From assembly GCF_014201415.1 (NCBI RefSeq), contig NZ_JACHEH010000012.1, positions 1 to 32,111 on the forward strand: 32,111 bases of DNA, in the 5' to 3' direction. The stretch is from Chelatococcus composti. Its GTDB lineage: Bacteria; Pseudomonadota; Alphaproteobacteria; Rhizobiales; Beijerinckiaceae. The translations under genes were made by a program, and so were the position numbers. This document shows positions 2,573 through 24,504 of this stretch, piece after piece. The stretch's first letter is position 1, and the number at the start of each line of letters is the position of its first letter. A model generated the notes under the pieces. The model saw only the letters and a list, made by a program, of their open reading frames with translations. It was not told where the DNA came from and searched no databases.

Positions 2573-3447
2573 GATGCGGCCTCCCCCGCGGAGCGCCGAT
2601 CCAGTGCCTTCGCGTAGAGCAGCGAGATCAGGAGGACGAAGACGAGCAGGATCGCCGAGAGCGCCGAGGCGAAGGGCCAGTCCAGCAGCTCGATGGTCTG
2701 CTCGTAGATTGTGGTCGCCATGACATTGGCCCGCGCGCCCCCGACGAGCGCCGGCGTGGCGAAGGCGCTGATCGCCAGCGAGAACACGAGGAGCGAGCCC
2801 GCGATGATGCCGCCGGGGGCAAGGCGCAGCGTCACGAGCCACAACGCGAGCCAGGGCGGCGCACCGAGGCTCATGGCCGCGTGCTCGAGATCCGGATCGA
2901 TCGACTTGAACACACCGTGCAGCGTCAGCACCATCAGGGGCAGCAGCACCTGCGCGAGGGCGATGATGACGCCGGTGAGCGTGTACATCAGCTGCATCGG
3001 CTGGTCGATGAGGCCGAGCGCAAGGAGAAGATTGCTGACGACGCCATCCCTGAAGAACAGCACCATCCAGCCGAAGGAGCGCACGACCGCGCTGACGAGC
3101 AGCGGGAAGGTGGTGAGAACGAGAAGAAGCGCAGCATAGCGCGACCGCATGCGCGCGATGACATAGGCCACGGGAACGCCCAGAATGAGGGTGATCAGCG
3201 TCACGCTGACACCGAGGAACAGGGTGCGCCCCAGGAGCTCCCAGTAATATTCGTCGCTGAAGAAGCGGATGTAGTGCGCCGCCGAAACCTGCCCTCTGTC
3301 GAAGGCGCTGACGGCCAGCAGCGAGAGCTGCGGCCACACGAAAAAGACGAGATAGACGAGCAGGCAGGGCGCGAAGATCAGGACGGGTACGAAGATCCGG
3401 GAAGGGGCTGCCCCCTTCCCGGCCGTCATGACGCCTGCAGCCGTCAT
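2569..3447 (-). CDS. ABC transporter permease, PotB-like
   Basis: A 292-residue permease with about six membrane segments, beginning near FVPVLIFAPCLLVYLVFFVW. The EAA-type loop reads LEHAAMSLGAPPWLALWLVTL. The chosen ATG (3447) overlaps the stop of the binding-protein gene as ATGA. Alternative ATGs exist at 3480 (would overlap the binding protein by 37 bases) and 3429. Its own stop overlaps the next permease start, also as ATGA. Length and loop fit the PotB/PotH half of polyamine, opine or mannopine-type importers. Confidence 0.92.
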   Translation of the reverse strand: MTAAGVMTAGKGAAPSRIFVPVLIFAPCLLVYLVFFVWPQLSLLAVSAFDRGQVSAAHYIRFFSDEYYWELLGRTLFLGVSVTLITLILGVPVAYVIARMRSRYAALLLVLTTFPLLVSAVVRSFGWMVLFFRDGVVSNLLLALGLIDQPMQLMYTLTGVIIALAQVLLPLMVLTLHGVFKSIDPDLEHAAMSLGAPPWLALWLVTLRLAPGGIIAGSLLVFSLAISAFATPALVGGARANVMATTIYEQTIELLDWPFASALSAILLVFVLLISLLYAKALDRRSAGEAAS

Positions 3448-4484
3448 CTTGCGATCTCGCGATTCCACCGCTCGATCCACTGCGCGCGCTGCTCGTTGAT
3501 GAGCGCGCGGTTCAGCTTGGCGAGCTGCGACACGTCCGGCACCTCGGCCGCCAGATCGGCGGGCAGCTTCGTCTTGGGATTCGAGGCCGTCCAGCGCATC
3601 TGGCGGGCAATCTCGATCTGGGCCTCCGGCCGCAGCATGTAGTCGATGGCCGCATTCGCCACGTCGGCGTTTTTCGCGCCCTTGGCCACCACGGCCGTGA
3701 TGTTCACGGCCGGGCTGCCTTCCTCGGGCGTCGCGAAGCCGACGGGCAGGCCGCTCGTCTGCAGCTTGAAGGCGTTGCCGGAGTCGTAGGGGATGATCCA
3801 GATGTCGCCCTGGCCGAAGAGTGAGGGCAGGTCGGACGCCGCCTTGAAGATCGTCTCACCCTTGATCTTCTTCATCGCCTCGAAGCCGGGCTCGATGTTA
3901 TCCTCGCCGCCACCGAAGGCGCGCGCCAGCATCACGAGGAAGTCGACGCCGTAGCCGTTGGTGATGGCCGGAAAGGCGATGTGACCCTTGTATTCCGGCT
4001 TCAGGAAGTCCCTGTAGCTACGCGGCGGCTCCTTGATCTTGTCCTTGCGGTAGAGAATGCCCTCGGCGATCACCGCCCAGGCGACCCAGCTCCCGTCGGG
4101 ATCGCGCAGGCCAACGGGAATGTCGTCGAGCTGCGACACCGCCGTCAGCGGCTGGATCAGCCCTTCCTTCTTGGCCACATCCTCCTGCCCGCCCGAGAAC
4201 TGGTACATGTCGATCTGCGGGTTGCCGGCCTCGGACTTGAGGCGGGCGAGGGCGGCAGCTGACTGCATGGGCACCTGCGTGCTCCTGGCCCCCGTCGCCT
4301 TGTCGAAGGGGTCGAACACGGCCTTCTGGATGATGTCCATGGTCGAGCCGCCGAAGCCGGACGAGATGAGGCTGCGGCCGGCGAAATCCTGCGCTGCCGC
4401 TGCGCCAGTCGGCAGCAGCGGCAGCGATCCGAGGGCCGCCAGGCCGGAAACGAACTGGCGGCGCGAAACGCGATCAAGACCCAT
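3444..4484 (-). CDS. Extracellular solute-binding protein, PotD/SBP_bac_8-like, Tat-type signal
   Basis: A 346-residue periplasmic binding protein. The N-terminus carries a twin-arginine motif, SRRQFVSG (residues 7-14), followed by a hydrophobic stretch ending TGAAAAQ, so export by the Tat pathway is likely. The body has the two-lobe layout of PotD-like proteins (mature start near DFAGRSLISSGFGGS; WIIPYDSGNAFKLQ; PVGFATPEEGSPAVNITAVV). Polyamine specificity cannot be read from the sequence: relatives bind spermidine, opines, amino-acid derivatives and other small cationic compounds. The gene follows the deacylase by 41 bases and overlaps the permease start by 4 bases. The neighbouring deacylase suggests an N-acylated ligand (inference). 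Confidence 0.9.
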   Translation of the reverse strand: MGLDRVSRRQFVSGLAALGSLPLLPTGAAAAQDFAGRSLISSGFGGSTMDIIQKAVFDPFDKATGARSTQVPMQSAAALARLKSEAGNPQIDMYQFSGGQEDVAKKEGLIQPLTAVSQLDDIPVGLRDPDGSWVAWAVIAEGILYRKDKIKEPPRSYRDFLKPEYKGHIAFPAITNGYGVDFLVMLARAFGGGEDNIEPGFEAMKKIKGETIFKAASDLPSLFGQGDIWIIPYDSGNAFKLQTSGLPVGFATPEEGSPAVNITAVVAKGAKNADVANAAIDYMLRPEAQIEIARQMRWTASNPKTKLPADLAAEVPDVSQLAKLNRALINEQRAQWIERWNREIAR

Positions 4485-20311: not shown

Positions 20312-21694
20312 ATGCACGACTACGACGCCATCATCATTGGCACGGGCCAGGCCGGCCCTGCCCTCGCCGCCCGGCTGTCGCAGGCAGGCATGCGGCTCGC
20401 CGTCATCGAGCGCAAGTTCTTCGGCGGCACCTGTGTCAACACCGGCTGCATCCCGACGAAGGCGCTGGTGGCAAGCGCCTACGCCGCGCACATGGCGCGC
20501 CGCGCCGCCGATTTCGGCGTGACGATCCGCGGCGAGATCGCCGTCGACATGGCGGGCGTCAAAGCGCGCAAGGATGACATATCGGGCAAGTCGCGCGCCG
20601 GCGTCGAAAGCTGGGTTCGCGGGCTGCCCGGCTGCACCGTCATCCAGGGGCACGCGCGCTTCTCCGGCCCGCACAGCGTCGCGGTGGGCGGAACGATGCT
20701 GCGGGCCGGGCGCATCTTCATCAACGTCGGCGGACGTGCCGCAGCGCCGCCGATCCCCGGCCTCGAGCGCACGCCCTACCTCACCAACAGCGGCATGATG
20801 GAGCTCGGGGAGCTGCCAGACCATCTCGTCATCATCGGCGGCAGCTACATCGGCCTCGAGTTCGCGCAGATGTACCGGCGCTTCGGCAGCCGCGTCTCCG
20901 TCGTCGAGATGGCTCCACGGATCATCCCGCGCGAGGATGAGGACATCTCGGCCGCCGTCGCGGACATTCTTGAGAGCGAGGGCGTGGCGCTGCATCCCGG
21001 GGCGGAATGCATCCGCGTGTCCGGGCAGACGGGCAGCATCGCCGTCACCCTCCGCCACGCGGACACGGCGCGCGAGATCGCGGGCAGCCATCTGCTCATC
21101 GCCACCGGGCGCCGGCCCAACACCGACGATCTCGGCCTCGAGGCAGCCGGCATCGAGACGGACGAGCGGGGCTACATCAAGGTCGACGACCAGTTGCGGA
21201 CGAATGTCGAGGGCGTCTGGGCGCTGGGGGACTGCAACGGCCGCGGCGCCTTCACCCACACCGCCTACAACGACTTCGAGATCGTCGCCGCCAACCTGCT
21301 CGACGGCAACCCGCGCCGTGTCGGCGACCGCATCCCGGCCTATTGCCTTTATACGGACCCTCCCCTCGGCCGCGTCGGCATGACGGAAGCCGAGGCGCGC
21401 AGGACCGGCAGGCCCTATCTCGTCGCCCGCCGCCCGATGACGCGTGTCGGCCGGGCCGTGGAAAAGGGCGAGGCGCTCGGCTTCATGAAGATCCTCGTCG
21501 ATGCCGCGGATCGGCGCATACTCGGCGCGGCGCTCCTCGGTGTCGGCTGCGACGAGGTCGTCCACGCCATCCTCACCCTCATGTATGCCGGGGCTCCCTG
21601 CGACGTGATGCAGCGTGCCATGCACATCCACCCGACGGTCTCGGAGCTGCTGCCGACGATGCTCGGCGAGCTGGTGCCGGCCGACGTGGCCTGA
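20312..21694 (+). CDS. FAD-dependent disulfide oxidoreductase (dihydrolipoamide dehydrogenase/mercuric reductase-like)
   Basis: A 460-residue class I pyridine-nucleotide disulfide oxidoreductase. ATG 20312 has GGGGAG upstream. Domains: FAD-binding YDAIIIGTGQAGPALAARL (4-22); redox pair Cys41/Cys46 in GGTCVNTGCIPTK; NAD(P)-binding LVIIGGSYIGLEFAQMYRRFG; FAD site VWALGDCNGRGAFTHTAYND; dimerisation domain from about 345 ending in HIHPTVSELL with His440/Glu445, the catalytic dyad. It lacks the N-terminal heavy-metal domain and C-terminal Cys pair of MerA, and no 2-oxoacid dehydrogenase E1/E2 genes are nearby, so it belongs to the broad 'FAD-containing oxidoreductase' group of unknown substrate. 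It ends six bases before the convergent channel gene. Confidence 0.9.
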   Translation: MHDYDAIIIGTGQAGPALAARLSQAGMRLAVIERKFFGGTCVNTGCIPTKALVASAYAAHMARRAADFGVTIRGEIAVDMAGVKARKDDISGKSRAGVESWVRGLPGCTVIQGHARFSGPHSVAVGGTMLRAGRIFINVGGRAAAPPIPGLERTPYLTNSGMMELGELPDHLVIIGGSYIGLEFAQMYRRFGSRVSVVEMAPRIIPREDEDISAAVADILESEGVALHPGAECIRVSGQTGSIAVTLRHADTAREIAGSHLLIATGRRPNTDDLGLEAAGIETDERGYIKVDDQLRTNVEGVWALGDCNGRGAFTHTAYNDFEIVAANLLDGNPRRVGDRIPAYCLYTDPPLGRVGMTEAEARRTGRPYLVARRPMTRVGRAVEKGEALGFMKILVDAADRRILGAALLGVGCDEVVHAILTLMYAGAPCDVMQRAMHIHPTVSELLPTMLGELVPADVA

Positions 21695-21700
21695 GGCGGA

Positions 21701-22813
21701 TCAGGAGCCGCTGCCGAAGTATTTCGTCCGCAGCCGGGCGATGTCGCCGCGCTCGTGGGCCGCGAGGAGCTGGACGGTCAACGGGCGGCGAAGGTCGCTG
21801 CCGTGCGGCGTTGCGAAGGCATACTTGTCCGGCTCGAAGAGGGGCCCGACGACGCGCACCCCGGCACCAGGCCGGGTGTGGGCGAAATATTCGAGGACCG
21901 GCGCGTCTTCGACGATCGCCGCAATGCTCCCCTCGCCGAGGGCCGCGACGGCCTCCTCGAGGCTGAGGAAGGCGCGGTGGTCAAGCCCCGTGCGGCGCAC
22001 GTACTCGTGCGCGACGCTGTCCCTCAGCACGCCCACCGTCCGGCCGGCGAGATCCTGGATGCCGTGGATCTGGCTGGTGAGCGCCAGCGTGGTCATGACG
22101 CTCGTCACCGACGAGGTGACGAAGGCAAGGACCGCGACACCGGCCACCAGCCAGAGCCCCTGCCAGATGCGGCCCACCCAGCCAAAGAGGTTCTTGCGTG
22201 ACGGCGGCCGGCCGGTAGTGGCAACCTGCATGACGGTGTAGAAGCTCTCGGCGAAACCGTCACGCCAGCGGCGGGGAAAATCCTTGTCGAAATGGCGGTC
22301 GAACACCGTCAGCAGTACCGACGCCACCAGGATGACCAGGGCAATCCAGGCATAGTAGCGCAGGTAGCCGGAGTCGCTCAGACCATCGAGGACATCCCAG
22401 AACCCGGCGCGCGGGCCGCTGCCGACCATGATACGCAGCCCGCCGTCGAACCAGGGCTGGGTGAAGTCGATCTGCTGCGCACGCTGCTCGGTCACCGTCA
22501 GGTTCGAGACGGCGACGTCCACCTCCCCCGCCGCGGTCGCCCGGACGAGATCGCCGAAGGTGTCGTATTCGCGATAGGCGTAGGGCCGCCCAAGGCGCAC
22601 GGCCAGCTCTTCCCACAGGTCGATCGCCATGCCGTCGAAGTGCGCGCCGTCCTTCATCACGAACGGCGGGCTGACATGGACGCCGACCGTGACGGGCTCG
22701 CCGCCCGGCCGGCCGGGACCGTTCTGCGCACGCGCGCCAAGGGCCGCGGCGAGAACGACGAAGGCGAGCGCACACAGGATCGTGGCTGTCGCGCGCAGGC
22801 AGGCACACCGCAT
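21701..22813 (-). CDS. GluR0-like ligand-gated ion channel: periplasmic amino-acid-binding lobes split by a pore module
   Basis: A 370-residue protein laid out like a prokaryotic ionotropic glutamate receptor. After a signal peptide (about 1-30), residues 40-127 are the first half of an SBP_bac_3 ligand domain with NLTVTEQRAQQIDFTQPW, where Arg111 matches the carboxylate-binding arginine of glutamate receptors. Then come TM1 (about 153-171), a re-entrant stretch (FAESFYTVMQVATTGRPP, about 187-204), and TM2 (about 216-240) ending SSVTSVMTTLALTSQI, comparable to the receptor SYTANLAAF region. The second ligand half follows (QDLAGRTVGVLRDS; IVEDAPVLEYF with Asp303). The filter reads TTGR instead of TVGYG, so potassium selectivity is not expected. 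ATG 22813 has AGGG eight bases upstream; a GTG at 22822 is the alternative. It lies 203 bases downstream of the dehydrogenase gene on the same strand. Confidence 0.82.
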   Translation of the reverse strand: MRCACLRATATILCALAFVVLAAALGARAQNGPGRPGGEPVTVGVHVSPPFVMKDGAHFDGMAIDLWEELAVRLGRPYAYREYDTFGDLVRATAAGEVDVAVSNLTVTEQRAQQIDFTQPWFDGGLRIMVGSGPRAGFWDVLDGLSDSGYLRYYAWIALVILVASVLLTVFDRHFDKDFPRRWRDGFAESFYTVMQVATTGRPPSRKNLFGWVGRIWQGLWLVAGVAVLAFVTSSVTSVMTTLALTSQIHGIQDLAGRTVGVLRDSVAHEYVRRTGLDHRAFLSLEEAVAALGEGSIAAIVEDAPVLEYFAHTRPGAGVRVVGPLFEPDKYAFATPHGSDLRRPLTVQLLAAHERGDIARLRTKYFGSGS

Positions 22814-23016
22814 TGCCGCCACCCTTCAACCGGACATTCAACAGTTGCGCGGCGCCAGGCGCGCCGACAGCGCGACCGGCGAACGATCAGGGCCGCTTCC
22901 GAACCGGGGAAGCTGTCGCAAGCCCGCTTAGCCTTCACGGCAAGGCGGGGTCAACCGCGACCAGCGGGGAAGCCCCGGCCCACAGGCACAGGCCGAGTCT
23001 TCCCTCGCCGGCGCGT

Positions 23017-24504
23017 TCACATGCCGCCGAGGCAGACGTACTTCAGCTCGAGGAAGCCCTCGATGCCGTACTTCGAGCCCTCGCGGCCGAGGCCCGACTG
23101 CTTGACGCCGCCGAAGGGCGCCATCTCGTTGGCGAGGAGGCCGGTGTTGACGCCGACCATGCCGCTTTCCAGCGCCTCGGCCACGCGCCAGACCCGCGCC
23201 ATGTCCTTCGCGTAGAAGTAGGCGGCCAGGCCGAACTCCGTGTCGTTGGCCATGGCGATCACCTCCTCGTCGTCGCGGAAGGTGATGATCGGCGCCAGCG
23301 GCGCGAAGGTCTCCTCCTTCGCGACCTTCATGTCCTGGGTGATGCCGGTCATCACCGTCGGCTCGAAGAAGGTGCCGCCGAGCTCGGAGCGCTTGCCGCC
23401 GAGGACGAGCTTGCCACCCTTGGCGAGGGCATCGGCCACGTGCTCCTCCATCTTGGCGACGGCACGCTCGTCAATCAACGGGCCCATGGTGACGCCTTCC
23501 TCGGTGCCGCGGCCGAGCTTGAGCGTGCGCGCCTTGGCCACGAACTTCTCGGTGAAGGCCTCGGCCACCGATGCCTGGACATAGATGCGGTTCGCGCACA
23601 CGCAGGTCTGGCCAGCGTTGCGATACTTGGAGATGATCGCGCCCTCGACGGCGGCATCGAGATCGGCATCGTCGAAGACGATGAAGGGCGCGTTGCCGCC
23701 CAGCTCCAGCGACAGGCGCTTGATGCCGTTGCCGGCCTCGCGCATCAGCCAGCGGCCCACCGCCGTCGAGCCGGTGAAGGTGATCTTGGCGACCTTCGGG
23801 TTGTGGCAGAACTCCTCGCCAATGGGCCGTGCGTCGCCGGTAATGACCGAGAACGCGCCCTTCGGCACGCCCGCCCGCTCGGCGAGCACGGCAAGCGCAA
23901 AGGCCGACAGCGGCGTCTGCGCCGCCGGCTTCAGCACCATGGTGCAGCCGGCCGCCAGCGCCGGGCCGACCTTGCGGGTGATCATGCCGTTGGGGAAGTT
24001 CCACGGCGTGATGGCGGCGCAGACGCCGACCGGTTGCTTCAGCACGACGATGCGCTGGTCGGGTCGGGCGGCGGGAATGATGTCACCGTTGATGCGCTTC
24101 GCCTCTTCCGCGAACCACTCGAGATAGGCGGCGTTGGAGACGATCTCGGCCCGCGCCTCGGCCCGCGGCTTGCCCTGCTCCGAGGTCAGGATCAGCGCCA
24201 GGTCGTCCACATTGGCGAGGATGAGCTCATACCAGCGCCGCAGGATCTGGCTGCGCTCCTTCACCGGGCGCTTCGCCCACTCCTTCTGCGCCGCATGCGC
24301 CGCATCGATGGCGCGCCGGGCGACGTCGGGGCCGAGGTCTGGCACCGTCGCGAGGAGCGCGCCATCGAAGGGATCGGTGACGGCAATGGTCCGGCCGTCC
24401 GGCGCGTCGATCCATTCACCAGCCACATAGGCCTTGTCCGTCAGCAGCGACGGATCCTTGAGGTCGAGCACGCGGCGGCCTGCTGTCTTGTCGTGTACGG
24501 TCAT
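23017..24504 (-). CDS. gabD: NAD(P)-dependent succinate-semialdehyde dehydrogenase-type aldehyde dehydrogenase
   Basis: A 495-residue aldehyde dehydrogenase. Catalytic residues are in place: Asn169 in ITPWNFPN, Lys192 in VLKPA, the NAD motif FTGSTAVGR, Glu267 in LELGGNAP, and nucleophile Cys301 (followed by Cys303) in NAGQTCVCANR. This combination, plus the start TAGRRVLDLKDPSLLTDKAYVAGEW, is typical of GabD, which oxidises succinate semialdehyde to succinate in GABA breakdown. Close relatives act on glutarate semialdehyde or sulfolactaldehyde. The ATG at 24504 overlaps the stop of the TauE-like permease gene by one base (TGATG), so they are co-translated. No GABA aminotransferase is adjacent; the class IV aminotransferase at 17775 is not a GabT. 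Confidence 0.9.
   Translation of the reverse strand: MTVHDKTAGRRVLDLKDPSLLTDKAYVAGEWIDAPDGRTIAVTDPFDGALLATVPDLGPDVARRAIDAAHAAQKEWAKRPVKERSQILRRWYELILANVDDLALILTSEQGKPRAEARAEIVSNAAYLEWFAEEAKRINGDIIPAARPDQRIVVLKQPVGVCAAITPWNFPNGMITRKVGPALAAGCTMVLKPAAQTPLSAFALAVLAERAGVPKGAFSVITGDARPIGEEFCHNPKVAKITFTGSTAVGRWLMREAGNGIKRLSLELGGNAPFIVFDDADLDAAVEGAIISKYRNAGQTCVCANRIYVQASVAEAFTEKFVAKARTLKLGRGTEEGVTMGPLIDERAVAKMEEHVADALAKGGKLVLGGKRSELGGTFFEPTVMTGITQDMKVAKEETFAPLAPIITFRDDEEVIAMANDTEFGLAAYFYAKDMARVWRVAEALESGMVGVNTGLLANEMAPFGGVKQSGLGREGSKYGIEGFLELKYVCLGGM

Follow-up and report, generated by a model that had tools for sequence, protein, structure and literature searches.

A gene on the reverse strand of the window, by which we mean the whole 32,111-nucleotide stretch of Chelatococcus composti DNA that was analysed, almost certainly encodes a member of the prokaryotic ionotropic glutamate receptor (iGluR) family, and its product is probably an amino-acid-gated channel that conducts without K+ selectivity, whichever ion it may pass. 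Prokaryotic iGluRs of a non-K+ type are already known, having been described in 2010 as Group 2 (PMC2950845). What is added here is a basic filter throughout one clade, a near-total absence of acidic residues from that filter, and a phage-borne copy.

Layout and predicted structure of the receptor

The initial annotation, made from the letters of the window, had proposed the order of a prokaryotic iGluR: a signal peptide, one half of a ligand domain (S1), a membrane helix, a re-entrant pore helix with its filter, a second membrane helix (M3) and the other half of the ligand domain (S2). This order was confirmed by a split Pfam domain and by the helices of an AlphaFold2 model (Table 1). The Pfam family SBP_bac_3 matched in two parts (E 1.3e-20, residues 44-370) and Lig_chan-Glu_bd matched as well (E 3.7e-10); on the pore, Lig_chan was found at E 7e-6 with 26.4 bits, under its cut-off of 30.8. 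The protein has an SBP3-type ligand domain interrupted by a membrane part, the arrangement by which prokaryotic iGluRs are recognized. All 13 NCBIfam matches of the protein lay under their cut-offs, and a promoter and terminator scan of positions 21600-23100 returned no match. Residue numbers used here are those of the initial annotation plus three, so that its carboxylate-binding arginine R111 is now R114 and its lobe-2 acid D303 is now D306. Both had been read as kept, and they are: R114 occurs in 61 of 62 relatives, the remaining row being a gap, and D306 also in 61 of 62, with a glycine in L161.

Table 1. Features of the receptor gene in the window, with residue numbers of the 373-residue product
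Feature	Positions	Strand	Residues	Basis or content
iGluR-type receptor channel gene	21701..22822	-	373 aa	from GTG 22822; full-length relatives
Alternative start	ATG 22813	-	370 aa	length used by the initial annotation
Putative signal peptide	22727..22822	-	1-32	sequence; cleavage after ARA judged by eye
S1 half of ligand-binding domain	22418..22699	-	42-135	contains R114, codon 22481-22483
M1 helix	22289..22366	-	153-178	AlphaFold2 model
Re-entrant pore helix	22214..22267	-	186-203	AlphaFold2 model and conservation
Filter T-T-G-R-P-P	22202..22219	-	202-207	R205 codon 22208-22210
M3 gate helix	22076..22183	-	214-249	VTSSVTSVMTT stretch; AlphaFold2 model and conservation
S2 half of ligand-binding domain	21710..22075	-	250-371	contains D306, codon 21905-21907

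The AlphaFold2 model was built as a single chain from a 15-sequence alignment and had a mean pLDDT of 77.6 and a pTM of 0.60. A single N-terminal helix (residues 2-31) covers the putative signal peptide. Confidence is for the most part high in the ligand domain (10-residue mean pLDDT mostly 87-96) and low in the pore (10-residue means 41-78, and 41-57 between residues 201 and 250). A fold predicted without a re-entrant pore loop had been named as an argument against a channel; the model does contain, at that low pore confidence, a pore helix that ends at the two threonines and is followed by a loop and M3. In Foldseek searches AMPA-receptor chains ranked at the top, with 8c1q aligned over 380 columns (E 1.2e-20, TMq 0.49, rmsd 10.8). 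Full-length superpositions were loose (rmsd 8-12 on the receptor chains listed), and the NpGluR0 ligand core 2pyy fitted closely (TMt 0.93, rmsd 1.4).

A profile made from 15 relatives matched NpGluR0 (2.9e-47), GluR0 (2.3e-35; 125 bits for the GluR0 ligand domain 1iit) and plant GLR3.4 (9e-27, positions 83-368), and it also matched NMDA receptors through the pore. M3 aligned without gaps to that of GLR3.4 through the SYTASLTSILT stretch. The pore segment alone, compared with solved channels, gave no convincing E-value, the best being 0.073 with GLR3.4.

A basic filter and the constraint on the pore

The filter reads TTGRPP and the TXVGYG of the Group 1 (GluR0) K+ filter is absent, in agreement with the GYG-less, arginine-containing filter noticed at the outset. 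A survey of homologues sharing this filter had been suggested, and ours comprised 62 readable filters from 64 distinct loci, drawn from a contig scan of genomes, plasmids and one viral contig and from a genome search, and so not a random sample; duplicate genomes (L132, L140, L152) were removed before counting, and L027, whose frame ends within the pore helix, and the partial L028 were left out. The typical motif is T[ST]G[KR], with G204 in 62/62 rows and a lysine or arginine at 205 in 58/62, so the basic residue is clade-wide. The other four rows carry T, T, S and E at 205: in L163 and L164 the filters VTKGT and VTKGS have the lysine shifted one position earlier, and in L162 (ATQGET) an acid replaces the basic residue. 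A second lysine or arginine is found at 210 in 56 of the 62 relatives, and the stretch 201-216 has a mean net charge of +2.8 (range 1-4). L162 is the sole row of the clade with an acid in the filter stretch (1/62), versus 13/13 GYG-type relatives and 20/26 with other filters (33/39 non-clade relatives in all; 19/25 if L046, counted as other, is reassigned), the comparison stretch for non-clade relatives beginning one residue earlier.

The initial annotation had also described several residues as missing from the filter. This part did not stand, since residues 200-216 of the window protein make 17 residues versus 16 in 13/13 GYG-type relatives; the loop is one residue longer and a deletion was rejected in favour of substitution. 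The pore helix and its two threonines align with those of the K+ types, V-G-Y-G-D being exchanged for G-[KR]-x-x-x.

Mean pairwise identity among the 15 relatives was 55.5% in S1, 52.4% in S2, 58.9% in M1, 76.0% in the loop from M1 to the pore helix (179-186), 77.4% in the pore helix (187-203), 70.2% in the filter loop and 78.9% in M3 (217-249). The pore helix and M3, though not M1, are thus far more conserved than S1 and S2, the opposite of the pattern expected from a simple membrane anchor; together with the pore insert, this disfavours the two-helix anchor that had been put forward as the finding that would undo the channel reading. Compared with the Chelatococcus caeni copy, the window gene has a dN of 0.091 and a dS of 0.469 (dN/dS about 0.2), and residues 140-250 have a dN of 0.044 and a dS of 0.603. 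Judged from sequence, the pore is under stronger constraint than the ligand domain, a sign of constraint rather than of conduction.

The HMMER alignment to plant GLR3.4 starts at P206, one residue past R205, and sets K210 opposite a plant glutamate. An acid at +4 from the Q/R/N site is kept in animal and plant receptors (Glu in plants) and in GluR0 (Asp), according to passages of PMC12226733, and by its spacing the glutamate opposite K210 fits this kept +4 Glu. If the two are the same, both charges important in known receptors would have turned basic here, making a plain K+ channel very unlikely. The live options are a low-conductance non-selective pore, an anion-permeable pore and a non-conducting one.

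To place the clade, we used a tree of the ligand domain only (69 rows, quick method, SH-aLRT support), with filter classes assigned by alignment register; by this register L032, L041, L046, L047, L063 and L073 fall outside the K/R class, their pattern having matched elsewhere in the segment. The K/R class needs one change on the tree, its 30 labelled rows lying on one side of one branch; L031, which represents the same gene as L087, was labelled K/R although its residue 205 is T. Support is 47 on the exact K/R branch, 92 for the fork with 28 rows and 86 for the 30 rows plus L046 and L047, both on long branches. The single change suggests that the pore class has for the most part the same history as the ligand domain. 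The idea of a distinct bacterial branch is upheld, with the weak support of 47. Further filter classes, among them TQADQMP and NGGFEER, are placed on the opposite side of the tree. L046, whose filter reads SGRYSEVP by eye, sits on a long branch beside the K/R clade and comes from the same class of bacteria; it is possibly a distant member of that clade. L072 and L073 carry a lysine or arginine before the glycine (ITKGPF, ITRGPF).

The branch had further been thought to be nearer to animal receptors, and here the scores point the other way. Among eukaryotic proteins the window protein matched plant GLR3.4 best, at 66.3 bits, versus 77.4 bits (GLR3.4) for a GYG-type bacterial relative and 81.4 bits (kainate receptor GluK3) for the TQAD-class relative L060, these being best-hit scores, not a tree, for one protein per filter class. 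Since two other classes score higher, a position as sister to animal iGluRs was rejected. L034, L036, L060 and L064 represent another iGluR class of the same order, with the short filter TQADQMP or similar, and this TQAD-type class may be a better place to seek eukaryotic-like pores.

Distribution, gene neighbours and a copy on a phage contig

The K/R-filter branch is made up mostly of alphaproteobacterial proteins, with relatives in environmental genera, among them Chelatococcus, Devosia and Nitratireductor. Two of the four Chelatococcus genomes searched, the window's own included, have the gene, the other two giving weak solute-binding matches. The Chelatococcus caeni copy (L011) is full-length and 84% identical, and Chelatococcus sp. 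CO-6 has an 86%-identical copy on plasmid pCO-6. A Paracoccus denitrificans relative (L077, 55% identity) has the filter TSGR, and one Group 2 accession is presumably from this species, judged by its prefix. At E <= 1e-60, 37/397 genomes of the order sample matched. At 1e-20, matches were found in 13/199 genomes of the family sample (five at 1e-80 or better), in 28/398 of the phylum sample (seven at 1e-90 or better) and in 10/385 of the class sample; in this last sample the window genome was joined by nine others whose matches, at 22-32% identity, fall outside the close clade. Relatives also occur on Agrobacterium and Salmonella plasmids; of the 21 matching plasmid records (20 from Pseudomonadota, one from a cyanobacterium), 18 show 43-86% identity and the other three 25-32%. 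In Mesorhizobium zhangyense, the frame at L027:4983-5564 looks like a broken copy.

In the window, genes for an aldehyde dehydrogenase and a TauE protein are found upstream on the same strand, and a pyridine-nucleotide oxidoreductase gene converges from the other side. Nine window ORFs were scanned and four had Pfam matches (aminotransferase, oxidoreductase, aldehyde dehydrogenase, TauE). The CO-6 record names its homologue of the aldehyde dehydrogenase an NAD-dependent succinate-semialdehyde dehydrogenase, and the 13 kb CO-6 stretch ends in an ABC ATPase gene on one side and in a gene annotated as an amino acid permease on the other.

Four neighbour families recur near the receptor gene: LprI (PF07007), two families without a Pfam match and one with DUF3011 in some members. 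They were present in 10/23 loci of the discovery set, a count biased by that choice, in 4/9 and 2/30 held-out loci and in 2/2 truncated ones, or 18/64 in total. The second held-out set (2/30) indicates that the link is limited by lineage, and a conserved operon remained a weak candidate. None of the three Chelatococcus loci had these families, nor did any of the GYG-type loci that served as controls (11 of the 13, with some of the stretches under 7 kb). LprI-family genes (lysozyme inhibitor) were seen near the iGluR gene in L012-L015, L023, L024, L027, L077 and L138; in L012-L015 and L138, going by match ends, they follow it on the same strand at a distance of 15-25 bases. Small proteins of secreted appearance, with GCHxxGCxVDxP at the C-terminus and in some cases DUF3011, recur near receptor genes, at L024:1914-2426, L079:1382-2230 and L084:8775-9173, the last on a phage contig. 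PADLOC at E 0.01 gave no defence-system match for the receptor and none for one member each of the four neighbour families, and a part in a defence system was rejected.

That phage contig, IMGVR_UViG_3300020599_000097 (L084; IMG/VR, 10.1 kb), carries a 61%-identical receptor gene at 3223-4338 on the plus strand, with the filter TSGRPAARKN. The gene lies between those for the head maturation protease and the portal, on the opposite strand to them, with terminase, virion structural protein and major head protein in the surroundings. Its reverse-strand placement within a head-gene module is that expected of phage cargo; this is a single contig for which an assembly error is possible, although the head genes on either side belong to one module. 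L084 was the only contig with this clade in two viral-contig scans. In an annotated phage collection no full-length match was found, the three records returned each covering <80% of the query at solute-binding level (26-31% identity), and a viral-contig scan with one GYG-type protein, of a kind that detects close relatives only, found no relatives.

Proposed function and comparison with known receptors

As in other members of the iGluR family, four subunits would assemble around a single pore in the inner membrane, and the clamshell ligand domain would face the periplasm. An L-alpha-amino acid would be held by R114 and D306, and closure of the clamshell would pull the M3 gate open. Four lysines or arginines may form a ring beside the Q/R/N position, with further basic residues lower in the filter where an acid is usual, and such a pore could be expected to have low cation permeability, little affinity for divalents or polyamines and possibly an anion leak. 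The cell would in this way convert an external amino-acid signal into a small change in membrane potential. That the clade-wide charge inversion went so far as to turn an iGluR into an amino-acid-gated anion channel seems to us improbable; if true, bacteria would possess a P-loop, iGluR-fold channel for chloride or other anions, sometimes borne by a phage or plasmid.

A conducting, non-K+-selective channel could also be a non-selective cation channel like the animal receptors, with its lysines and arginines off-pore or paired. Basic loop residues on the cytosolic side would conform to the positive-inside rule without having to line the pore, and a charge at 205 is not strictly required, given the three rows with T, T or S and no acid (two of them with a lysine one earlier) and the one with E. 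We consider this sub-case possible yet somewhat unlikely; a point against it is that 61/62 rows lack any acidic residue in the stretch, in contrast to the 13 GYG-type relatives. A receptor that does not conduct at all, its pore blocked by the basic side chains as if by a tethered cation and a conformational signal passing to a partner, has in its favour the K/R aligned at the filter and the well conserved loop between M1 and the pore helix, which could be a docking site; a tetrameric sensor of this kind would also be compatible with the high conservation of M3 and the pore helix. A plugged pore, however, need not keep M3 and its threonine-rich gate stretch among the best conserved parts, and a constant partner gene was not seen, the four recurrent families being found in 18/64 loci and absent from the window. 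We hold such a receptor to be unlikely.

Records name the protein a "transporter substrate-binding domain-containing protein", and S1 and S2 match GlnH at 100 bits, under a cut-off of 303, as would befit a solute-binding protein of an ABC importer anchored by two ordinary membrane helices. The membrane part, however, lies within the binding domain rather than at its end, and the pore helix and M3 are better conserved than the ligand domain. None of the four window neighbours that matched Pfam is an ABC permease or ATPase, and the CO-6 stretch (L078), whose ABC ATPase is at the edge, about 5.8 kb off, has no gene named ABC permease. We give this importer reading very little credence.

In the open-licence literature we found no earlier account of this branch's filter or of the ion it conducts, which is weak evidence of absence, and no electrical recording for this clade. 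A natural branch with a basic filter offers a ready system for studying what decides whether a P-loop passes cations, anions or no ions at all. The window protein is small and has neither an N-terminal domain nor M4, and L162, L163 and L164 are natural filter variants useful for a comparison of conduction.

Group 2 was defined by Ger et al. 2010 from ten prokaryotic iGluRs lacking the K+ filter, eight of them with a signal peptide, and was judged closest to the eukaryotic receptors (PMC2950845). The window protein, with its iGluR layout and no K+ filter, resembles them in the order S1-M1-P-M2-S2, in the kept arginine and aspartate and in a pore unlike any channel of known selectivity. The main text of that study gives no filter motif, whereas here TxG[KR] is clade-wide. 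GluR0 of Synechocystis (Slr1257, Group 1) has the layout, the ligand-domain fold and the Arg and Asp in common with the window protein; it differs in its K+ signature TXVGYG (given in passages of PMC3483616 and PMC12332018), where the window protein has TTGRPP and lacks acidic residues throughout the filter stretch. Among solved structures, NpGluR0 of Nostoc punctiforme (2pyy) is the best match to the ligand domain (1.6e-27), its solved chain being the ligand core alone; the cyanobacterial relative L081 (Kovacikia) has the short filter GQDVTMP. Eukaryotic iGluRs have an N-terminal domain and M4, absent in bacterial GluR0 according to part of PMC6385376, and in GluA2 RNA editing brings one arginine to a comparable filter site, as described in part of PMC3483616. 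Plant GLR3.4 matches the window protein across the pore (2.6e-17, residues 85-369) and has the M3 stretch in common. Plant and animal receptors carry an acid at +4 in the filter, as the relevant part of PMC12226733 describes, where this clade has a lysine or arginine.
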